Below are positions 29,153 through 33,565 of a stretch of 33,565 bases of DNA, in pieces. The stretch's first letter is position 1. The number at the start of each line of letters is the position of its first letter. The position numbers were made by a program, and so were the translations under genes. Below the pieces are notes generated by a model. It searched no databases and was not told the origin of the DNA. It saw nothing but the letters and a program-made list of their open reading frames with translations. The stretch comes from a virus: positions 1-33,565 of IMG/VR virus record IMGVR_UViG_3300042691_014702; one strand, given 5' to 3'.

Positions 29153-29233
29153 TGCCTCAGACGGGACTCGAACCCGTACACCTTGCGGTAACAGATTTTA
29201 AGTCTGTCGTGTCTACCATTCCACCACCAAGGC
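29153..29233 (-). tRNA. tRNA-Leu (anticodon UAA)
   Basis: The leftward strand folds to a full cloverleaf with long variable arm. The acceptor stem is GCCTTGG/CTGAGGC with two G-U pairs, the D-arm is GGTGGAATGGTAGAC, the anticodon stem-loop is ACAGA-CTTAAAA-TCTGT with anticodon TAA, a variable arm follows, and the T-arm is ACGGGTTCGAGTCCCGT. CCA is not encoded. The thyX ribosome site starts directly after the discriminator base, and the promoter start site lies only a few bases before the 5' end, so tRNA and thyX are probably one transcript that needs processing. UUA is a frequent leucine codon in these AT-rich genes. Confidence 0.95.
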
Positions 29234-31610: not shown

Positions 31611-31760
31611 ATATTTGGGCAGTCAGTCCGGGTTTTCTGGAGGCTTTCGTAAAAGGCTCACCTGACTAAGGTGGCAAAAGAATAATACCACCACACGGGA
31701 GAAAGAGTAAGGACCGTGTGATGGTATTAACTTCCCCAGTGCGTTTGCATACATGGGGGA
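31611..31760 (-). ncRNA. Hairpin-rich non-coding stretch downstream of tRNA-Asn
   Basis: A 150-base stretch without a credible gene. Read leftward it forms CCCCA...TGGGG (31734-31758) with an inner TGC/GCA, then a long hairpin of 15 pairs with 15-base loop (31684-31698 with 31714-31728), then CACCT/AGGTG (31659-31673). One position of the long stem is U-G on the leftward strand but an A-C mismatch on the other, so the leftward RNA is the folding strand. It lies between tRNA-Asn and a terminator and is probably co-transcribed. I recognise no known RNA family. Confidence 0.5.
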
Positions 31761-31832
31761 CTCCTACTGCTGGGATCGAACCAGCGACCATTCGGTTAAC
31801 AGCCGAACGCTCTACCGCTGAGCTAAGTAGGA
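31761..31832 (-). tRNA. tRNA-Asn (anticodon GUU)
   Basis: A full cloverleaf: acceptor TCCTACT/AGTAGGA with discriminator G, D-arm AGCTCAGCGGTAGAGC, anticodon stem-loop TTCGG-CTGTTAA-CCGAA with anticodon GTT, and T-arm GCTGGTTCGATCCCAGC. CCA is not encoded. It follows the DUF3310-like gene by 7 bases and precedes a structured non-coding segment. Confidence 0.96.
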
Positions 31833-31839
31833 AAATAAA

Positions 31840-32268
31840 CTATTCTATTGCTCCTTTGAGCCAGTTTTTAATCCTGTCCGGATAGGATTCTTCAGGTACT
31901 CCTGTATTGCTTGCCTCACTAGCCAACTGCGGTTCCTTGACCCTGCATATTGATCGATACTCATCAACGTTTCCTGATCCAGCCGTAGTACTAACATGCT
32001 TGGGTAATTCTTCGGCCTTAATCTTTTGTGCTTGGTCGTACTCATAGCAATCAGCTACCAATCCCTTCACTTTGTCTGCAACTTCCGTTTGTCCGGTAAC
32101 TGCATAGGCAAGGAACCAAATAGCCTTGCACACGTCCTCGTCATACTTGGAACCGTTTTTCTTACCAGCTCTAGCAATGTATGCCAGCGCAGTAAAAAGA
32201 TACCTGTCAAGGTTCCAAGCGTCAGCTGCATGAACAGGTTGCAGATCACTCTTGTTGTAATACGCCAT
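31840..32268 (-). CDS. DUF3310-like protein (142 aa)
   Basis: Residues 1-60 follow the DUF3310 pattern common in phages: YYNKSDLQPVHAADAWNLD, then YIARAGKKNGSKYDEDVCKAIWFL. In that family this element is often fused to or found near nucleotide-metabolism proteins, but its biochemical role is unknown. The domain is complete by about residue 65. The remaining 75 residues are unlike the family and their DNA also encodes a complete RHH ORF in another frame, so part of this tail may exist only because of the overlap. I start at the ATG at 32268, one base after the dUTPase stop and with GGTG 7 bases before it; a longer upstream extension overlaps dut. Confidence 0.85.
   Translation of the reverse strand: MAYYNKSDLQPVHAADAWNLDRYLFTALAYIARAGKKNGSKYDEDVCKAIWFLAYAVTGQTEVADKVKGLVADCYEYDQAQKIKAEELPKHVSTTAGSGNVDEYRSICRVKEPQLASEASNTGVPEESYPDRIKNWLKGAIE
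31845..32045 (-). CDS. Nested ribbon-helix-helix protein (66 aa), out of frame with DUF3310-like gene
   Basis: This ORF lies wholly inside the DUF3310-like gene in another frame and gives a convincing RHH (Arc/CopG-type) domain. After a basic arm (MSTTKHKRLRPKNYPS) comes a strand MLVLRLDQ (17-24), helix A ETLMSIDQYAGS (25-36), turn NRS, and helix B WLVRQAIQEYLKN (40-52). Such proteins dimerise and insert the strand in the major groove, often as autoregulators. The ribosome site before the ATG is weak. Third-position base use suits the DUF3310 frame better, so this may be an overprinted gene or, less likely, a chance ORF. A plausible target is the twin operator at 33041-33075. Confidence 0.5.
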   Translation of the reverse strand: MSTTKHKRLRPKNYPSMLVLRLDQETLMSIDQYAGSRNRSWLVRQAIQEYLKNPIRTGLKTGSKEQ

Positions 32269-32269
32269 G

Positions 32270-32725
32270 TTATACACCAGTAGATCCAAAACCGCCAGAT
32301 CCACGTTCTGTTTCAAACAGTGATCCAGATGTAACTACAACGGGTTCACACATACACACTGGAGCAATAACAAGCTGTGCTATACGCATACCGGGCACTA
32401 TTGTGAAAGTATCAGAACTCATATTTTTGAGTATTACTTTTACCTCACCAGTGTAGTCAGCATCAACTGTACCGGGGCTATTTAAGACTACGATGCCGTG
32501 CTTATAAGCCATTCCGCTACGAGTGCGCACCTGTGCTTCAAAACCCTCGTGTAGCTTGATTTTCATGCCCGTAGGCACAAGCAATGTTTGGTCAGGGCGA
32601 ATCGGCATAGTCTTATCACCGATGTACTGCAGATCTATTCCAGACGCCTGTTTTGTAGCGCGATGTGGATCGAATAGATACTCACTAGTGCTACTACCGC
32701 AATAAACAATTTCAAGGCGATCCAC
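32270..32725 (-). CDS. dut: dUTPase (151 aa)
   Basis: All five trimeric dUTPase motifs are present: motif 1 ASGIDL (27-32), motif 2 RTRSG (67-71), motif 3 GTVDADYTGEV (85-95) with the catalytic Asp and base-stacking Tyr, motif 4 PGMRIAQLV (111-119), and motif 5 RGSGGFGSTG (141-150) at the C-terminus. The enzyme hydrolyses dUTP to dUMP and pyrophosphate, keeping uracil out of DNA and feeding ThyX. Translation probably starts at the GTG at 32725, which overlaps the stop of the 86-aa gene (TAGTG). The gene is one base before the DUF3310-like start. Confidence 0.96.
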   Translation of the reverse strand: MDRLEIVYCGSSTSEYLFDPHRATKQASGIDLQYIGDKTMPIRPDQTLLVPTGMKIKLHEGFEAQVRTRSGMAYKHGIVVLNSPGTVDADYTGEVKVILKNMSSDTFTIVPGMRIAQLVIAPVCMCEPVVVTSGSLFETERGSGGFGSTGV

Positions 32726-33038: not shown

Positions 33039-33075
33039 TTTCTCCGCAGGGAGATACTGTTCTCCGATGGGAGAA
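33039..33075. promoter_or_regulatory. Twin operator-like inverted repeats, 20 bp apart
   Basis: Two copies of a palindrome: TCTCC-GCAG-GGAGA (33041-33054) and TTCTCC-GATG-GGAGAA (33060-33075). Their centres are exactly 20 bases apart, two helical turns, so bound dimers would sit on one DNA face. This is the classic layout of phage repressor or RHH operators. They lie 55-90 bases upstream of the leftward gene start at 32985. Confidence 0.65.
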
Positions 33076-33180: not shown

Positions 33181-33252
33181 TAGCATCTAAGTAGCTTTTC
33201 GCTTCCCCCTCTTATTAGGTGTAGGCGACGCAACGTGCGTACCCTATAGGGA

Positions 33253-33292
33253 TGGGGCAGGTATCGCAGGATACCTGCCCCATTCTTTTATT
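33253..33292 (+). terminator. Strong rightward hairpin, terminator or leader element
   Basis: A perfect 13-bp stem (TGGGGCAGGTATC at 33253-33265 with its complement at 33270-33282, loop GCAG), followed on the rightward strand by TTCTTTTATTAT. It stops rightward transcripts from the left or acts as a leader hairpin for the gene at 33352. Immediately upstream is the palindrome CCCTATAGGG (33242-33251). Confidence 0.75.
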
Positions 33293-33351: not shown

Positions 33352-33565
33352 ATGCCACGTAAAACATCTGCGCCTATCGCGCCTATCGCACCTGCTACAC
33401 CTGCTGTGAACATTGCACCTGCGGGTGATAAGCGCACCTTCGATGCTATCGCGAATATGATTCGCTCTAACACGCAGTGTACGACAACGCTTGCAACGGT
33501 CGATGGTATCGTTGCTAGTACTGTCGATACACCGGGTGTACCGGGGTTCTTTGACACAATGCCTG
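33352..33565 (+). CDS. Rightward protein, N-terminal part only (at least 71 aa)
   Basis: An open rightward frame with AGGAG 9 bases before the ATG runs off the window. It begins MPRKTSAPIAPIAPATPAVN, a Pro/Ile/Ala-rich disordered arm, then NIAPAGDKRTFDAIANMIRS and a Thr/Val-rich part. No domain is recognised in the visible 71 residues. The codon use is more GC-rich than the virion genes. It marks the divergent, rightward transcription unit beyond the window. Confidence 0.75.
   Translation, partial: MPRKTSAPIAPIAPATPAVNIAPAGDKRTFDAIANMIRSNTQCTTTLATVDGIVASTVDTPGVPGFFDTMP

Follow-up and report, generated by a model that had tools for sequence, protein, structure and literature searches.

The window analysed here is the whole 33,565-nt stretch of viral DNA in IMG/VR record IMGVR_UViG_3300042691_014702 (positions 1 to 33,565). 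Within it, a small ORF with the sequence features of a ribbon-helix-helix (RHH) regulator gene lies out of frame inside the 3′ part of a DUF3310-like gene on the same strand. Both ORFs were found where the original prediction had placed them, and the locus is laid out as follows.

31840..32268, minus strand: DUF3310-like gene (142 aa, ATG start, stop included), with a homologous ORF in 19 distinct sequences
32060..32268, minus strand: core of the DUF3310-like protein, residues ~1-69, outside the overlap (from the Pfam match to residues 4-53, the group alignment and the AlphaFold helices)
31840..32046, minus strand: tail of the DUF3310-like protein overlying the RHH gene; stop-free, weakly conserved and predicted to be disordered
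32045-31845, minus strand: RHH gene (66 aa, ATG start, stop included), in the +1 frame relative to DUF3310
32062..32067, minus strand: AAGGGA, candidate ribosome-binding site of the RHH gene (from sequence comparison, with modest statistical support)
31758..31833, minus strand: tRNA-Asn(GTT), just 3′ of both stop codons

A TTG codon at 32316, 48 nt upstream of the ATG at 32268, offers an alternative start for the DUF3310-like gene, and an extension of the protein is thus possible. When known RNA elements were sought as a cause of the conservation, the tRNA was the sole match. A second tRNA gene, Leu-TAA, is located at 29153-29233 in the same leftward gene block as tRNA-Asn. A strong hairpin followed by a T-rich stretch (33248-33287) resembles a terminator and separates the leftward operon from a rightward ORF; the latter, which starts at 33352, had no Pfam or PHROG match.

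The outer protein scored 19.6 bits against DUF3310 (PF11753; E 9.7e-4), below the cut-off of 24, and it matched PHROG 236 with an E value of 5.5e-7. Based on these profile scores, it is classed here only as DUF3310-like. AlphaFold placed helices at residues 20-34, 40-58, and 61-84 of this protein, and the pLDDT of the tail was below 50 over residues 81-125, which predicts disorder. The inner ORF scored 23.6 bits against RHH_1 (PF01402; E 4.7e-5), above the gathering cut-off of 20.5, so that the absence of an RHH profile match, one of the outcomes that would have counted against the original prediction, was not encountered. Among the members of the phage group described below, RHH_1 was matched at E≤0.01 in 15 of 19 (window counted), with a best E value of 7.1e-6 in a relative. 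Six-frame searches of six relatives of 62-67 kb yielded a single RHH_1 match each; some relatives fell under the cut-off.

The strand-helix-helix pattern is present in the sequence of the RHH protein. In all 19 sequences residues M17, V19, and R21 are invariant, whereas L18, L20, and L22 vary. Strand positions 17, 19, and 21 are alternate residues, which we take to be of the kind that faces DNA in RHH proteins. The nearest solved chains were 6iya, 7etr, 2k5j, and the PutA RHH 2gpe; in alignments, the loop between the two helices was 2 residues shorter than in solved RHH proteins. An AlphaFold monomer built from the 19-sequence alignment was of low confidence (mean pLDDT ~61), with helices at 24-34 and 41-52 and the strand not built, and a Foldseek search with this low-confidence model returned no usable match. 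The domain had been called a textbook RHH; the assignment holds by its profile match and across the 19 distinct sequences, but "textbook" is slightly strong given the shorter loop and the low-confidence model. Judged from its sequence, this nested reading frame is probably a genuine gene that encodes a small RHH protein. A close stand-alone relative of this protein was not found in phage records, viral contigs, or genome contigs.

Two kinds of profile scan of IMG/VR, one with RHH only and one with DUF3310 (whole or core-only), were run separately, and both led to one and the same set of 23 contigs, representing 19 distinct overlap sequences when the window is counted. All relatives are uncultured contigs. 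The lowest identity to the window was ~43% for the RHH protein and ~50% for the DUF3310 protein. Both frames were open in every one of the 19 distinct sequences, and no stop codon or frameshift in the RHH frame accompanied a retained DUF3310 tail in any of them. The ends of the two ORFs lay within 5 nt of each other in 16 sequences, where RHH ends first, and within 13 nt in the remaining 3, where DUF3310 ends first. That both frames remain intact in 19 distinct phage sequences goes beyond what chance would give; the locus is thus very probably dual-coding, as had been proposed, and not a coincidental overlap.

The 3′ end of the overlap occurs in two unrelated versions, in which either an RHH protein ending in GSKEx is paired with a tail ending in WLKGxIE, or an RHH protein ending in KAK/KAN is paired with a tail ending in YS. 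When L035, L036, and L047 were compared against L032, contigs L032 and L036 were seen to have a common front and a differing 3′ end. This pattern suggests recombination within the dual-coding segment that left both frames intact.

The RHH start codon occupies the corresponding place across the group and is ATG, except for TTG in L089. In most relatives, a purine-rich site is located 5-7 nt 5′ of this start; in the window and in L027 the distance is 16 nt. The purine-rich sites are clade-specific (GGGAG, AAAGGA, GAGGG, or GGAGG), and occur where the DUF3310 amino acids differ. Ribosome-binding sites of equal strength were present in 2-21% of background windows per sequence and the relatives are non-independent, so these sites alone lend modest support to an internal start. 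These data also bear on whether programmed +1 frameshifting might fuse DUF3310 with RHH. As such a fusion would allow, the RHH frame of some relatives stays open 5′ of the RHH ATG. However, the window and several relatives have an in-frame stop 1-3 codons 5′ of the RHH start, no common slippery sequence was seen by eye, and the start codon is conserved. We therefore regard a frameshift fusion as very unlikely.

Selection on the two frames was examined in several ways. When the tail peptide was fixed and synonymous codons were redrawn, a mean of 1.6-3.4 RHH-frame stops arose per sequence; when the RHH peptide was fixed instead, the mean was 3.9-7.4 tail stops per sequence. In both cases none was observed in 19 of 19, although these tests were made per sequence and, the 19 sequences being related, are non-independent. 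Relatedness was allowed for in a simple, purpose-built tree simulation (600 runs), in which only the RHH frame was constrained and which was tuned to the observed divergence. In this simulation 16.3 of the 19 tips acquired a premature tail stop, with a minimum of 7; in the real phages there were none, indicating that stops have been removed from the tail.

Divergence at the three codon positions of the RHH frame was 0.32, 0.23, and 0.49, respectively, the second positions thus being the least variable. By pairwise site-class counts, dNN/dSN was 0.19 [0.10-0.34] for close pairs and 0.43 [0.26-0.71] overall (range, 0.19-0.47); values below 1 denote purifying selection on the RHH frame. The dNN/dNS ratio was ~1.9 and gave no sign of residue-level constraint on the tail, but this ratio is confounded, as most NS sites fall at the second positions of RHH codons. 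Moreover, the base composition at tail first positions was coding-like, more than stop avoidance explains. Selection thus acts on both frames, as amino-acid constraint on RHH and as stop avoidance plus coding-like composition for the tail. The tail itself, stop-free yet barely conserved and, according to the structure model, probably disordered, bears out across the 19 sequences the earlier view that it is free to vary.

Two simpler accounts were weighed against these results. Were the DUF3310 protein alone real and the RHH ORF a chance open frame, the more genome-like codon usage of the tail frame and the poorly spaced ribosome-binding site of the window would be readily understood; the RHH_1 match, the least variable second positions, the dNN/dSN well below 1, and the invariant RHH residues across the 19 sequences speak so clearly for a gene that we give this account the least credence of all those considered. 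Conversely, only the RHH gene might matter, with the open tail frame an accident of its sequence. The scant residue-level conservation of the tail and its predicted disorder accord with this idea, but evolution under RHH constraint alone predicts tail stops in about 16 of the 19 sequences, and stop avoidance does not fully explain how coding-like the tail first positions are in composition. An accidental tail is accordingly judged highly improbable, to the same degree as a frameshift fusion.

Given that both frames appear to be in use, we considered which of them is older. The original prediction had implied that DUF3310 was the original frame and that RHH was printed onto it, citing third-position base use. 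This codon evidence was reproduced in full: in 19 of 19 sequences, codon and third-position use favoured the DUF3310 frame, the tail frame resembling the rest of the genome more than the RHH frame did. It was given less weight than homology and constraint, because a tail that avoids stops reshapes the third positions of RHH. The RHH frame has relatives in a widespread Pfam family and is under the stronger constraint, while the tail, for which relatives were not found outside the group, is disordered by prediction and not shared by the outgroup described below. On these grounds the RHH gene is most likely the older frame, over which the DUF3310 tail grew, and the direction of overprinting first proposed is not the better supported one.

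The outgroup, L126 (IMGVR_UViG_3300032290_001036), is a more distant relative on a 66.5-kb contig; it is the nearest phage in which RHH is lacking, has dUTPase and DUF3310 in the same order as the window, and can serve as outgroup for the phage group as a whole. Its gene row reads thyX, a homologue of the operon's first gene, dUTPase, a 101-aa DUF3310 protein, and SSB. This DUF3310 protein aligned to that of the window over residues 10-67 only, with an unrelated end. RHH was sought across the L126 contig with the group profile and PF01402, and was not found. Since neither RHH nor the long tail was found in L126, both seem to be derived features of the group. A search for relatives of the tail in L126 and in the inspected DUF3310 proteins of cultured phages found none. 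In ten cultured DUF3310 proteins the ends reach 0-130 aa past the match, and no RHH of the same subfamily (E≤0.01) was found near those ten genes. Contigs L111 and L122 include the operon promoter but break off before reaching the place of DUF3310, and are therefore uninformative.

In the converse history, the DUF3310 tail was there first, and the RHH ORF arose on it de novo through overprinting and came to look like an RHH domain. If true, an RHH DNA-binding fold would have arisen from an alternative frame and then been kept across a phage family. The codon usage of the tail frame favours such a birth, as do the lack of a close stand-alone RHH relative, the RHH-less outgroup, and the loop two residues shorter than in solved RHH proteins. 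Nevertheless, the RHH_1 homology (in the window and, best, in a relative) and the position of RHH as the more constrained frame are hard to reconcile with it, and the absence of the tail from the outgroup and from the examined cultured DUF3310 proteins leaves an older tail without support. De novo birth of RHH is thus unlikely, though less so than a frameshift fusion or an accidental tail.

An inverted repeat, TCTCC-N4-GGAGA, was present ~88-97 nt 5′ of the operon's first gene in 17 of 17 distinct phages covering the region. Its arms were invariant in all 17, and the site was nearly unique per genome. The window has two copies (33041-33054 and 33061-33074) with a spacing of 20 bp, both upstream of the leftward operon. 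A role for this palindrome as an RHH autoregulation site was considered and rejected: L126, in which RHH was not found, carries the same palindrome within comparable surrounding sequence, and the repeat is thus not tied to RHH. TCTCC-N4-GGAGA is likely a regulatory site or a hairpin.

Returning to the reading in which the RHH gene is the older, the following course of events would account for the locus. In an ancestor of the phage group, an RHH gene most likely came to sit directly 3′ of DUF3310. Loss of the DUF3310 stop would then have let that gene read on over RHH, after which the tail would have been held stop-free. From the gene order, dUTPase and the DUF3310/RHH pair are probably co-transcribed on a single mRNA. 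Ribosomes that begin at the DUF3310 ATG would read through in one frame to give the poorly conserved, probably disordered tail, and others would initiate at the internal ATG to give the RHH protein. As suggested by its fold, the latter would dimerise and bind DNA as a regulator. Taken as a whole, this reading, an RHH gene with its own internal start inside a DUF3310-like gene whose tail overran it later, is in our view probable.

No account of an RHH gene nested inside another gene was seen in the titles and abstracts of the open-access literature searched. In tailed dsDNA phages it is unusual for a same-strand overlap to be long enough to span an entire regulator gene, and gene finders that bar long overlaps would lose one of the two genes. 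The 19 distinct sequences, together with an overlap-free outgroup, constitute a clean comparative test set for a regulator and a disordered tail that share DNA.

The RHH protein has the same strand-helix-helix sequence pattern as RHH_1/CopG-type regulators, but has a shorter inter-helix loop and is encoded inside another gene. The window's outer protein has in common with DUF3310 phage proteins (SaV of lactococcal 936 phages and the 'nucleotide kinase' genes of actinophages) a core motif of the LKYIARAGKK type; it differs in falling below the Pfam cut-off and in having a long tail overlying an RHH gene, an organisation that none of the ten cultured examples showed. In a survey of dsDNA viruses, same-strand +1 overlaps were the commonest kind once 1-nt and 4-nt overlaps were set aside, and +1 overlaps had a median length of 14 nt (IQR 8-26) (PMC8903798). 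The present overlap is likewise on the same strand with a +1 shift; however, at ~200 nt it covers a whole gene and, compared with that median, stands at the long end. Overlapping genes and C-terminal extensions are already known, for example in phage phiX174 genes A and C (PMC8227390). As in the phiX174 A/C extensions, an older gene here appears to have been overrun by a neighbour's extension in another frame, and the new part has no relatives elsewhere. The setting differs from phiX174 in being a 33.6-kb fragment of a tailed dsDNA phage with relatives of ~64 kb, and in that the overrun gene is, by sequence assignment, an RHH regulator that is fully or almost fully covered. Finally, the codon-usage criterion reviewed there, by which the older frame is the one nearer the genome's usage (PMC8227390), would make the tail older if applied here, and thus points the opposite way from its direction in phiX174.
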